This document shows positions 36,379 through 40,662 of a DNA stretch of 40,662 bases, piece by piece. The DNA lies in the NCBI GenBank assembly GCA_030679145.1, contig JAUXTU010000103.1, forward strand, positions 1-40,662. The letters run 5' to 3'. A program made the position numbers and the translations under genes. The notes below the pieces were generated by a model. It made no database searches and had not been told where the DNA came from. It saw only the letters and a list, made by a program, of their open reading frames with translations. The stretch comes from Bacteroidota bacterium. Its GTDB lineage: Bacteria > Bacteroidota > Ignavibacteria > UBA10030 > UBA8401. Positions within the stretch are counted from its first letter, which is position 1. Each line of letters begins with the position of its first letter.

Positions 36379-37962
36379 ATGAGTGAAAATCTATTAACAA
36401 TAAAAGAAGCAAGTGAGTGGGCAACGAAACATTTAGGAAAGAATGTTACCCCAGCAAATATTTCATACTTAATTCAATATGGACGTGTTAAAAAAATTGG
36501 TGAAAATGGCAATACACGAGTTGTGAAAGAAGAACTTCTAAGTTACTACAAATCGAATAATAGTAAGAGAGAACTTTCTTGGAAAGACAAACTTGGTAAA
36601 GATTTAAATTGGGCTTTATCGTTTGACCAATACACGGAATCAGAAACAACAAAACATGTCCATCGGTTGCATCCTTACAAAGGAAAATTTATCCCTCAAC
36701 TCGTTGAATATTTTCTGGATGATCATAAAGATAAATTTAAAAAAGAAATCTATTTTAAGAAGGATGATATAGTTCTTGATCCTTTCTCTGGAAGTGGAAC
36801 AACATTGGTGCAAGCCAATGAGCTTGGCATGCACAGTATTGGCATTGATATTTCTATATTCAACTCACTTATTGGGAATTGTAAAATTACAAAATACAAT
36901 TTGATTGATGTTAAAAACGAATTGGATCGAATTTCAAAAGCTTTAAGACATTTTTTAATAGATTCGCATACTGTTGAGTTTGAAGAAAAACTTCTCAAAG
37001 AACTTTATATCTTTAACAATAAGAACTTTCCTGTTCCGAAATATAAATATCAAGTGAAAATAGGAGAGATTGACGAAGATAAATATGGACCGCAAAAAGC
37101 TGCAATTTTTTTACCAACCTATAATGATCTAGTAAAGAAATTCAAAATTAAGTTACGTCAGGATAAAACAGATTCTTTTTTAGATGTGTGGTATTCGCAA
37201 CATATTAGAAACGAAATAGAGTTCGTTTTTGGAGAAATCAAAAAGATAAAAAACCCAGACGCCAAGAAAATTGTTAGTATTATTTTAAGTCGTACCATTC
37301 GTTCCTGTCGTGCTACGACACATGCTGACCTAGCGACGCTTGTTGAGCCAATTACAACTACATACTATTGTTCAAAACATGGAAAAATATGTAAACCACT
37401 TTTTTCAATTTTAAAATGGTGGGAAACCTATAGTAAAGATACAATTAAACGTCTTGGTGAGTTTGATAGCCGAAGGACGAAAACTTTTCAACTCTGTTTA
37501 ACTGGCGATAGCCGAACAATAAATATTTTGAGTGAGATTGATAAGCGAAATTCTGAGTTTGCTCAGTTGGTTAAAAAACAAAAAATTAAAGGCGTTTTTT
37601 CAAGTCCACCTTACGTTGGTTTGATTGATTATCACGAACAACATGCTTATGCCTATGATTTGTTTGGTTTTAAGCGTAAAGATGAACTTGAAATTGGTCG
37701 GCTATATCAAGGACAGGGCAGAGAAGCAAAGCAAAGTTATATTAAAGGTATTTCAGATGTTTTGAATAATTGCAAAGAATATTTTGTTGAAGACTACAAT
37801 GTATTTCTTGTAGCTAATGATAAATATAACATGTATCCGACTATTGCTGAAAATGCTGGAATGCAAATTATAAATCAATTCAAACGACCAGTAATAAATC
37901 GAACGGAAAAAGACAAAGGTGCATATTCAGAAATAATTTTTCATATAAAGGGGAAACCATAA
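36379..37962 (+). CDS. Type II DNA methyltransferase with N-terminal HTH (m4C/N6 class)
   Basis: 527 residues. At about 5-57 lies a helix-turn-helix of the excisionase/MerR-like type (LTIKEASEWATKHLGKNVTP, ISYLIQYGRVKKIGENGNTR), not common in such enzymes. The SAM site follows: HPYKGKF (motif X-like) near 98 and DPFSGSGTTLVQANELG at 134-150. After a 260-residue insertion, which should hold the target-recognition part, comes the catalytic SPPY at 409-412 within VFSSPPYVGLIDYHEQHAYA. SPPY points to N4-cytosine methylation. The order X-I-TRD-IV is the alpha arrangement. The next gene is the matching endonuclease. Base use looks A+T-richer than in cdsA and rimO. Confidence 0.88.
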   Translation: MSENLLTIKEASEWATKHLGKNVTPANISYLIQYGRVKKIGENGNTRVVKEELLSYYKSNNSKRELSWKDKLGKDLNWALSFDQYTESETTKHVHRLHPYKGKFIPQLVEYFLDDHKDKFKKEIYFKKDDIVLDPFSGSGTTLVQANELGMHSIGIDISIFNSLIGNCKITKYNLIDVKNELDRISKALRHFLIDSHTVEFEEKLLKELYIFNNKNFPVPKYKYQVKIGEIDEDKYGPQKAAIFLPTYNDLVKKFKIKLRQDKTDSFLDVWYSQHIRNEIEFVFGEIKKIKNPDAKKIVSIILSRTIRSCRATTHADLATLVEPITTTYYCSKHGKICKPLFSILKWWETYSKDTIKRLGEFDSRRTKTFQLCLTGDSRTINILSEIDKRNSEFAQLVKKQKIKGVFSSPPYVGLIDYHEQHAYAYDLFGFKRKDELEIGRLYQGQGREAKQSYIKGISDVLNNCKEYFVEDYNVFLVANDKYNMYPTIAENAGMQIINQFKRPVINRTEKDKGAYSEIIFHIKGKP

Positions 37963-38805
37963 ATGTCTCCGAAGAATAAGGTTATTGTTGAAGTTATTAA
38001 TGATACCATTGTCCAACTAATGGAAAGGGTGATGAAAAAGGTTTTAATTGAAGACCCTTTTCTATCGGATAATCACAAAGCAAAAAAACCACTATATGCA
38101 GCTTTGGTTCCAGACGAAATATTCAAAGGGTCCCATTTTGAACGTAGATTTGTAACACCGTTTGGTGGAGTTTGGGAAAAATTGGCCAAATCTGCTGCAC
38201 AAAAATATTATGGTAATGCTGTGCTAAGTAAAGCAATAACTGGAAAGATTCCTAAGGAAAGACTCAGAAGAATTCAAGAAGTTTTAAATAATTTGGAGCA
38301 TGCTGAAGTTGGAAAGAAAAAAATCAAACCTAATTGGGATAAGGAATTGGATTATATTCTTGAAGGTAAGGGAAAACTAATTCCGGCGACTGTTGTTTGT
38401 GATTTATTTGTAGAAAACAATAAAGATAAAAAGAGTTATGCATTTGAGTTGAAATCTCCACTTCCTAATAGTGATATTTCAAAAGTGAGCAAAGAAAAGA
38501 TGTTCAAGCTTTATTCAATGTCTCCTTTAATGGTCTCAGATGCATTTTTTGCTTTACCATATAATCCCTTTGGGAAACGCGAAAATTATTCTTGGGCATT
38601 TCCTGAAAGATGGTTTAATATGAAAGAAGATAAAAACGTTTTAATCGGAAACGAATTCTGGGATCTAATAGGTGGGAAAAATACTTATGAAACATTTATA
38701 ACTGAAATCAACAAAGTGGGTGGTCACTATAGAGAAAGAATTTATAGAGAGTATTTAGGCATCGAGCCACCCGCTTCAAGTTCTTCTCACAAATTGATTT
38801 TATAA
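37963..38805 (+). CDS. TdeIII-family type II restriction endonuclease
   Basis: 280 residues, directly following the methyltransferase stop without a gap. It matches the TdeIII family along its length: HFERRFVTPFGGVWEKLAKS, KIPKERLRRIQEVLNNLEH, and the late FFALPYNPFGKRENYSWAFP followed by VLIGNEFWDLIGG. The PD-(D/E)xK site is seen as Asp147 in VVCDLFV and Glu162-Lys164 in AFELKSPLPN, so it looks active. TdeIII itself recognises GGNCC; the target here may be the same or related but cannot be read from sequence. With the methyltransferase it forms a complete restriction-modification pair. Confidence 0.85.
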   Translation: MSPKNKVIVEVINDTIVQLMERVMKKVLIEDPFLSDNHKAKKPLYAALVPDEIFKGSHFERRFVTPFGGVWEKLAKSAAQKYYGNAVLSKAITGKIPKERLRRIQEVLNNLEHAEVGKKKIKPNWDKELDYILEGKGKLIPATVVCDLFVENNKDKKSYAFELKSPLPNSDISKVSKEKMFKLYSMSPLMVSDAFFALPYNPFGKRENYSWAFPERWFNMKEDKNVLIGNEFWDLIGGKNTYETFITEINKVGGHYRERIYREYLGIEPPASSSSHKLIL

Positions 38806-38836: not shown

Positions 38837-40132
38837 TTGAACACCAAACAACAAAAAATAAACATAATCACGCTTGGCTGCGCAAAAAACACGGTTGATT
38901 CTGAAATGTTGTACAGTCAATTGCTTAGCAATGATTTTACATTGACAGATTCAATTACTGATGCCGACATAGCAATTGTTAATACCTGCGGATTCATAGA
39001 CGCAGCAAAACGTCAATCTGTAGATACAATACTTTCTGTTGTCGAACGAAAAACTTCAGGTCAGTTGGAGAAAGTATTTGTGATGGGATGTTTGGTAGAA
39101 CGATATCAGAAAGATCTTCAAAAAGAGATTCCGGAGATCGATAATTTCTTTGGTACAAATGATCTTCCGAAAATTCTTGAAGCTCTTGGCGGAAAATATA
39201 AATATGAATTGCTTGGTGAACGAACCGTTTCCACTCCAAAATATTTTTCGTATATAAAAATCTCTGAAGGGTGCGATAATCCTTGTTCATTCTGTGCTAT
39301 TCCAATCATGCGGGGAAAGCATAAGACCAAACCTGTTGAACAGGTGATGGATGAGACGATGCGGCTTGTTGAAAAAGGGGTGAAAGAACTAATCGTTATC
39401 GGACAAGATACGACCTACTACGGTTTGGATATCTATGGTGAGCGAAAACTTGCTTCGCTACTTACATCGCTTGCATCAGTGAAGGAATTGGAATGGATTC
39501 GATTGATGTATGCGTATCCGGCAAAGTTTCCGCACGATATTTTACAATCGTTCAGTGACAATCCGAAGATCTGTCGTTATCTTGATATGCCGATACAGCA
39601 TGCAGCGGATAATGTCCTGAAGTCGATGAGGAGAGGAATAACTCGAAAGACAACCGAGAATTTAATTGCAACAGTAAGAACATCGGTTCCGGATATTTCA
39701 CTTCGAACAACATTGATCGTTGGTTATCCGAATGAGACCGAGGCAGATGTAGAAGAGCTTGTCCAGTTCATTAAAGATGTTAAGTTTGACAGACTTGGAG
39801 TCTTTACCTATTCTCAAGAAGATGATACGACAGCATACGGTTTAGGTGATCCGATTCCCGAAGAGGAAAAAGAACGCCGGAAGGAACATGTGATGGAAGT
39901 TCAACGAGCGATTTCCCTTGAACAAAATGAGCTGCGAATTGGGAGAACAACTCGCGCCGTTATTGAACGAATTGAAGAAGGAAATTTTGTCGGAAGGACG
40001 GAATGGGATGCACCGGAAATTGACAATGAAATTTTTGTTCCGAAGAAAAATGGATTTCATATTGGAGATTTTGTGAAGGTAAAAATCGAAGATGCGACCG
40101 AGTATGATTTATACGGAGAGATAATTTCATGA
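38837..40132 (+). CDS. rimO: Ribosomal protein S12 methylthiotransferase RimO
   Basis: 431 residues. The three N-terminal cysteines of the auxiliary cluster are Cys15 (LGCAKN), Cys51 (NTCGFI) and Cys85 (MGCLVE). The radical-SAM cluster is Cys146/150/153 in CDNPCSFCAIP. It continues with IRGKHK-like IMRGKHKTKP, YAYPAKFP, MPIQHAADNVLKSMRRG and RTTLIVGYPNETEADVEEL, and ends in a TRAM domain for S12 binding. The family adds a methylthio group to Asp89 of ribosomal protein S12. The start is TTG 38837, 31 bases after the endonuclease stop; no ATG or GTG fits in frame upstream and no Shine-Dalgarno is visible. The next gene overlaps or starts 8 bases later. Confidence 0.95.
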   Translation: MNTKQQKINIITLGCAKNTVDSEMLYSQLLSNDFTLTDSITDADIAIVNTCGFIDAAKRQSVDTILSVVERKTSGQLEKVFVMGCLVERYQKDLQKEIPEIDNFFGTNDLPKILEALGGKYKYELLGERTVSTPKYFSYIKISEGCDNPCSFCAIPIMRGKHKTKPVEQVMDETMRLVEKGVKELIVIGQDTTYYGLDIYGERKLASLLTSLASVKELEWIRLMYAYPAKFPHDILQSFSDNPKICRYLDMPIQHAADNVLKSMRRGITRKTTENLIATVRTSVPDISLRTTLIVGYPNETEADVEELVQFIKDVKFDRLGVFTYSQEDDTTAYGLGDPIPEEEKERRKEHVMEVQRAISLEQNELRIGRTTRAVIERIEEGNFVGRTEWDAPEIDNEIFVPKKNGFHIGDFVKVKIEDATEYDLYGEIIS

Positions 40133-40140
40133 AGGAGAGA

Positions 40141-40662
40141 ATGAAAATATTTTTAACTCGCGAAACCTTGCGAAGGTTAACTGCCGTTTTCATAAAACCT
40201 TCGCAAGGTTTATTAATTATACTGTTCTCATCCAGCCTATGTGCGCAAGTTGAAACACGTAAACCATTGGCAACATTTGACGCTCCTGAATTTTTTGTTG
40301 AAGCACTCAGTTTTTCAAGTGGGGATTCACTTACCTCTCGCGTTGATGTGTATGTGCAGATACCGTATGATGTTCTTCAATTTGTAAAAAAGAACGATCA
40401 ATATATTTCGAAGTATGAAATTACGATGAATTTTTTGACAGACAAGAATGCATCAATTTCGGAAAAGATATGGACGGAAGAATTCAAAGTCCCTCTGTTT
40501 GAATATACAGGCTCTAAAAAAGCGTACAGCTTAACACAACGATCTGCCGAGATTTCACCCGGGGTGTATACATTAAGGATACAATTACGTGATAACGAAT
40601 CAGGGAAAATATCATCGGTTGTCAAAAGAATTATTGTTGATAATTATTTCAAATCTTCGCTT
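40141..40662 (+). CDS. GWxTD domain-type exported protein, N-terminal part (cut by window end)
   Basis: 174 codons are open to the window end. ATG 40141 has AAGGAG upstream; ATG 40129, in the same frame and overlapping the rimO stop, is an alternative. After the hydrophobic core LLIILFSSSLCAQ the protein continues VDVYVQIPYDVLQFVKKNDQ, YEITMNFLTDKNAS, WTEEFKVPLFEYTGS and ISPGVYTLRIQLRD. This is the beta-sandwich that precedes the GWxTD domain in Ignavibacteria and related bacteria. The GWxTD motif itself lies beyond the window. Between MKIFL and the hydrophobic core is a long insert (TRETLRRLTAVFIKPSQG) encoded by a palindromic repeat, giving an unusually long signal-peptide n-region. Confidence 0.7.
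   Translation, partial: MKIFLTRETLRRLTAVFIKPSQGLLIILFSSSLCAQVETRKPLATFDAPEFFVEALSFSSGDSLTSRVDVYVQIPYDVLQFVKKNDQYISKYEITMNFLTDKNASISEKIWTEEFKVPLFEYTGSKKAYSLTQRSAEISPGVYTLRIQLRDNESGKISSVVKRIIVDNYFKSSL
40163..40211. repeat. Nested palindromic (REP-like) element inside the GWxTD gene
   Basis: AAACCTTGCGAAGGTT (40163-40178) and AACCTTCGCAAGGTTT (40196-40211) are perfect 16-bp inverted copies with 17 bases between them. Each arm is itself a hairpin (AACCTT-GCG-AAGGTT). Two nested palindromes facing each other are the layout of REP/BIME-type or miniature mobile elements. It begins 22 bases after the ATG and is read through in frame. Confidence 0.8.

Follow-up and report, generated by a model that had tools for sequence, protein, structure and literature searches.

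An in-frame double palindrome in a predicted signal peptide and its probable origin in a REPIN-like, RAYT-linked repeat family

How does a perfect inverted repeat come to lie, with the reading frame intact, between the start codon and the hydrophobic core of a predicted exported protein? The repeat sits near the end of a 40,662-nt contig of a Bacteroidota bacterium (the window, by which we mean this whole stretch of DNA), and the original prediction regarded it as a REP-like element of a mobile type that had inserted in a signal peptide. The answer developed here draws on the structure of the repeat, its absence from orthologues, its distribution in the home genome and beyond, and the transposase genes found beside copies in related genomes.

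Structure and insertion at the window site

The double palindrome at 40163–40211 is real and has the form first described. Inverted-repeat measurement gives two 16-nt arms at the predicted coordinates, 17 nt apart and complementary at all 16 positions (Table 1), and each arm is itself palindromic about an unpaired centre triplet, so the repeat consists of the design AACCTT-NNN-AAGGTT twice, in inverted orientation. Two inverted palindromes able to make one hairpin are the hallmark of a REPIN. Folding of the RNA from 40115 to 40240 returned a long hairpin (z = –3.6, with 1 of 200 shuffled sequences equally or more stable), in keeping with the stable hairpin expected near the ATG.

The repeat begins 22 nt past the likely start codon at 40141, in an ORF that stays open throughout the repeat and extends to the contig end, and its proposed position between start codon and core, with frame preserved, was thus correct. 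Of two candidate starts, ATG 40129 overlaps the stop codon of the upstream gene, which we take to be rimO, and ATG 40141 appears the more likely start from the sequence because AAGGAG precedes it. The sequence from the repeat to the hydrophobic core contains no in-frame ATG, GTG or TTG, as had been claimed, and the one TTG nearby is inside arm 1. Searches of Pfam and NCBIfam with the 178-aa piece of the exported-protein ORF gave zero matches, and the label GWxTD-type, which comes from the first reading alone, is kept here as an assumption. Just upstream of rimO, at 36379–38805, a gene resembling a DNA methylase lies together with one of 280 aa, and the two may be a type II restriction-modification pair.

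Table 1. Features of the window site and in-frame elements in enzyme genes of other loci.
Feature	Location	Strand	Basis
rimO-like gene; UPF0004, radical SAM and TRAM domains	38837..40132	+	ORF, Pfam
Exported-protein gene (predicted), cut by contig end; start ATG 40141, alternative 40129	40141..40662	+	ORF; relatives in 39 of 41 genomes
Extra stretch of about 57 nt (19 codons) that same-genus orthologues lack; boundaries may shift by a few bases	40156..40212	+	Orthologue comparison
Arm 1 of double palindrome, AAACCTTGCGAAGGTT	40163..40178	+	Inverted-repeat measurement
Loop, 17 nt; 12–13 of 17 bases common to four other genome copies	40179..40195	+	Loop comparison
Arm 2, AACCTTCGCAAGGTTT	40196..40211	+	Inverted-repeat measurement
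Hydrophobic core and cleavage region of signal peptide, LLIILFSSSLCAQ	40210..40248	+	ORF translation; hydropathy
MalQ with in-frame element	L138		Pfam
ValRS with in-frame element	L142		Pfam
Aconitase with in-frame element	L160		Pfam
PLP-dependent enzyme with in-frame element	L169		Pfam
YgiQ with in-frame element	L173		Pfam
PyrD-like protein with in-frame element	L176		Pfam

Relatives of the exported protein were found in 39 of the 41 genomes searched, and in most of these the alignment begins no earlier than about residue 27. Each of the six same-genus orthologues (G001–G006, with lengths counted from the ATG judged to be the start and with unread bases just after the AQ in G003) has 17 residues up to the first AQ, compared with 36 in the window protein counted from 40141, a difference that corresponds to 57 extra nucleotides in the window gene. 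A seventh genome of the genus, G007, gave no match to the exported protein. Consistent with this count, a DNA alignment of the window with G001, G003, G004 and G006 has a 57-column gap in the orthologues. The prediction that about 54 bases would be missing from orthologues at this site was therefore close, as was the predicted addition of about 18 residues (19 codons by this comparison), but their description as charged was wrong, since only 5 of the 19 carry a charge (3 R, 1 E and 1 K). The hydrophobic core is similar with and without the insert (best 10-residue hydropathy mean of 2.46 in the window protein and 2.31–2.62 in five orthologues). No target-site duplication and no exact empty site was seen for the insertion. 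Taken together, these results support the first reading, of a mobile-type repeat inserted in frame in a signal peptide, as largely right.

Since 450 bases separate the element from the end of the contig, in a genome of 123 contigs, an assembly artefact has to be weighed. Both flanks of the element, however, align in frame with the orthologous rimO-side and gene-side sequences, and the contig has no break at the repeat, making this explanation barely credible.

A dispersed family and its association with RAYT genes

The exact 15-mer of the repeat occurs at 34 places in the 3.83-Mb home genome, where 23 strict pairs were found with none for the reversed control. These numbers rule out a unique or chance palindrome, and they are the many dispersed copies that the original prediction anticipated and that a REPIN should have. 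Thirty distinct elements can be recognized in this genome when one mismatch per arm is allowed; with gene context taken from a crude ORF caller, 15 lie between tandem genes, 7 between convergent genes, 3 between divergent genes and 5 inside ORFs. The loop of the window copy groups with the loops of four other copies, the flanks of the five being unlike (best-four loop match sum of 50, against a maximum of 46 in 2000 shuffles), as copying within the genome predicts. Across the order, strict pairs are present in 32 of 98 genomes, and the control gave zero in all 98. Most of the records used in the analysis are titled as MAGs. The centre triplets vary (GCG, GTC, CCG, TCA and others) and yet those of the two arms complement each other in 26 of the 30 home-genome elements, a set partly fetched with an exact-arm query (shuffle mean 13.5, maximum 20), and in 28 of 37 order elements (mean 9.8, maximum 18; 2000 shuffles each). 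Such covariation would fit either a hairpin formed by both arms or recent perfect copying.

Could the repeats instead be fixed binding sites or RNA hairpins under selection, such as terminators or mRNA stabilizers, with the window copy serving a regulatory role? The stability of the hairpin and the placement of 22 of the 30 home-genome copies between tandem or convergent genes would suit such sites. However, the element is absent from this position in all six same-genus orthologues, distribution over species is patchy, no T-run beyond background accompanies the copies, and in-frame copies reside within six unrelated conserved enzymes. We therefore consider immobile, selected sites very unlikely and conclude that the repeat is probably mobile.

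The family extends well outside the order. A scan of a genome collection placed the exact pair in at least 108 stretches from at least eight phyla. Among the 108 listed, the NCBI phylum is Chloroflexota for 41, Bacteroidota for 26, Ignavibacteriota for 11, Fidelibacterota for 11, Poribacteria for 3, Chlorobiota for 3, Calditrichota for 2 and Cloacimonadota for 2, and 9 have no phylum label (KSB1 among these). The loop is 3 nt long in 43 of 84 pairs from 80 of these listed stretches. A viral collection contained no match to the exact pair, ruling out carriage there. A literature search, outside figures, supplements and most subscription papers, found no description of this repeat family or of its spread over many phyla, and the letters of the palindrome returned no paper on such repeats by title.

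What might move such a repeat? In relatives, RAYT genes lie between elements that are roughly 600 bp apart. At six distinct loci the palindrome adjoins a RAYT gene, and five of these have it on both sides: L085 and L194 are from Ignavibacteriota or the same order, L152 (identical to L221) is from the same-genus genome G001, L151 is from Cloacimonadota, and L146 and L102, both of which read as frameshifted, are from one KSB1 genome, with L102 flanked on one side only. The proteins of L085, L152 and L146 match PF01797 above cut-off and NF047646, a model of REP-associated transposases, below cut-off. A search model built from four of these flanked proteins found matches in 71 of the 98 order genomes. 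Thirty RAYT loci were fetched, each the best of its genome. An AACCTT arm (at most one mismatch) is near 11 of them and at least two shorter cores are near 15, and many of the remaining loci are flanked, by eye, by other palindromes, for example GTGCGACTCACTT or GTGACCGTCACC.

In a tree of 33 RAYTs, rooted by midpoint only, a branch with support 100/98 separates 15 proteins that are exactly the core-bearing ones of the order. At least two ACCTT-NNN-AAGGT cores (at most one mismatch) lie within 300 bp of all 15 branch members, compared with 2 of the 18 others, both from KSB1, the core label having been picked after the tree was seen; one further RAYT outside the branch has a single one-mismatch core. 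The full-arm label changes four times on this tree, rather than once, and none of 500 shuffles gave so few changes (mean 10.5). Moreover, strict pairs have a median of 6 in the 11 genomes whose fetched RAYT has an arm nearby and a median of 0 in the other 87 (one-sided Mann–Whitney, 1.9e-6, uncorrected for relatedness), with pairs nevertheless present in 23 of those 87 and absent from 2 of the 11 (G078 and G080).

The RAYT link that the original prediction proposed to look for exists in relatives: flanked RAYT genes are present in two species of the same genus, G001 and G003, but no AACCTT-flanked RAYT was found in the home assembly. The home genome's nearest RAYT, at C87, was rejected as an arm-flanked mobilizer, as no arm lies nearby and a repeat search saw no inverted repeat there. 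This distant RAYT (L036, 1100–2100) is bordered on each side, by eye, by sequence resembling GACAATGTCTGAC, which may be another repeat family of the genome.

Among 12 further carrier genomes, which were hand-picked and include one (G102) whose places are identical to those of G050 in the order set, two (from KSB1 and Cloacimonadota) have a flanked RAYT, both picked with that knowledge. The other ten, not chosen for RAYT, had no flanked RAYT in the loci fetched, which covered 30 of 51 matches, and one of them, G103, has 10 pairs and zero matches to the RAYT model. The mobilizer in these ten carriers is thus unproven; loss, assembly gaps or another mobilizer could explain the missing genes.

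Several observations bear on the RAYT loci themselves. In some of the ten carriers, RAYTs lie beside other double palindromes, a few of them 15-3-15 in shape with other letters (L305 at 2061–2105 and the flanks of L315 and L325; AACTTTGCGGAAGTT, AGACTTCCGAAGTCT), which suggests that a 15-3-15 double palindrome beside a RAYT is a general architecture. At L151 (2914–3606), the flanked RAYT has an in-frame insert of about 35 codons before the HuH motif, with an inverted repeat at its bounds by eye.

The carriers lacking a flanked RAYT, together with G103, are what would be expected if the repeat were a MITE or other palindrome moved by a different transposase, its place beside RAYTs then reflecting RAYT genes that travel on these repeats or have inserted next to them. 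The ends of the element are also compatible with such an origin: a GT[AG]G or CGTC foot was found in the outer 8 nt of 4 of 60 home-genome ends (shuffled mean 1.3, maximum 4), 0 of 74 order ends and 7 of 248 cross-phylum ends (shuffled mean 10.5). Against a different transposase, the palindrome core goes with one RAYT group in 15 of 15 cases, and the RAYTs read outside that group are mostly flanked by other palindromes, leaving this an improbable account.

We thus think it likely that this REPIN-like double palindrome is a non-autonomous member of a RAYT (HuH/Y1 transposase) system and that one copy has inserted in the window gene. For a RAYT-moved repeat, the two inverted arms would fold in single-stranded DNA as one long hairpin or two small ones, and the cognate RAYT would recognize the folded form. 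Copies would spread in the genome, mostly between genes, and one would have entered the start of the window gene in the lineage of this species, where it directly follows MKIFL and lengthens the frame by 57 nt. Translation would then pass through the repeat, and the protein would keep its export signal, with a longer basic n-region, because the hydrophobic core lies after the insert; export presumably still works.

Copies in other protein genes

Across the collected loci, 45 of 192 distinct elements lie inside ORFs of at least 60 aa (crude caller). Pfam scans of 30 proteins covered 31 of these 45 elements, and in 6 of the 31 a single domain match runs through the element (Table 1). Of the five ORF-internal copies in the home genome, those in the window gene and in a purple acid phosphatase gene (L073, by Pfam) look to be in real genes; L259 and L080 gave no Pfam match, and the fifth, L068, is a 71-aa ORF. 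The L073 copy (C27:33002–33048) falls in the N-terminal leader of the phosphatase ORF and is read in the frame that the window copy uses; relatives in eight genomes of the genus align only from residue 128, and a tandem paralogue differs at the N terminus.

In aconitase and ValRS, the element occupies a loop of variable length, judging by eye from alignments of 10 of 11 full or partial aconitases and 10 of 15 fetched ValRSs. Elements in enzyme loops and leaders indicate that tolerance at such places recurs. Also by eye, one aconitase (L278) carries what resembles a decayed half element, and several ValRS relatives carry other palindromes in the same loop. This loop, between FKYM and YIPVAT (L290–L299), holds palindromic inserts that differ between species of the family, some like GTAG-tagged REPs by eye, and it may be a hot spot for several repeat families.

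A bolder proposal is that a single RAYT-linked palindrome family, present in eight or more bacterial phyla, enters protein genes again and again without loss of frame and so keeps supplying essential enzymes with insertions in loops and leaders, with different palindrome families using the same permissive sites. Repeated in-frame entry would then follow from the common 33-bp form, which is 11 codons long, and from GCG/CGC arms that are free of stops in any frame; only this form of the arms is stop-free, as the GTC/GAC, TCA/TGA and GAA/TTC forms contain a stop. We advance this proposal tentatively and regard it as doubtful.

Relation to known repeat systems

The element best fits the TIRYT/TIRtron kind, in which a RAYT gene is flanked by non-GTAG inverted repeats, some self-complementary, and dispersed copies are often dimers (Di Nocera 2013, PMC3733652). 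A RAYT with non-GTAG inverted-repeat flanks, together with dispersed copies, is what we find in relatives, although not in the home assembly. By contrast, the sequence family and phyla differ from those TIRtrons and the element is 15-3-15 in form; this comparison is one of architecture, and the palindrome may equal one of the TIRs of PMC3733652. Most TIRYT proteins fall in TnpA-Y1 subclass 2.1, which has an HTH domain at the C terminus and the motifs NH[YF]H, FQ and Y[IV]HLNP (PMC6006769). Our RAYT protein alignment has NHYH, F[QE] and Y[IL]H[LC]NP motifs, and an HTH Pfam match was found in none of three proteins tested.

With REPs and REPINs, the element shares two inverted palindromes, dispersal and a RAYT beside its own repeat (PMC3116915, PMC6006769), whereas it is without the GT[AG]G or CGTC foot and numbers tens of copies rather than the more than 100 usual for REPs (PMC2817692). 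Thus, the description REP-like holds for a dispersed, REPIN-like double palindrome but not for a classical REP. Nor is a REP tolerated as coding sequence as unusual as had been supposed, for REPs within coding sequence have already been described from several species (PMC3733652). Intragenic GTAG/CGTC REPs, although a different repeat, insert in frame in genes in the same manner as the window copy, including at N termini, where translation may begin downstream of the REP (PMC3733652); this caveat suits the window copy less well because the stretch from repeat to core offers no start codon. The Rickettsia palindromic elements likewise lie in frame in unrelated protein genes (PMC10969869), as the present family does in the window gene and six enzymes. 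Compared by description, those elements are about 150 bp long rather than 33–50 bp, and here the home-genome copies are mainly intergenic and a RAYT is associated. As intragenic REPs, TIR-flanked RAYTs and the Rickettsia elements are already known, ours appears to be a new repeat family of a known kind.

More broadly, these results, from sequence alone, tie a short repeat found across phyla to a likely group of transposases and supply a natural set of RAYT–repeat pairs for recognition tests. They also illustrate that, outside the best-known case of Rickettsia, other phyla too have housekeeping and exported proteins lengthened by palindromic repeats.
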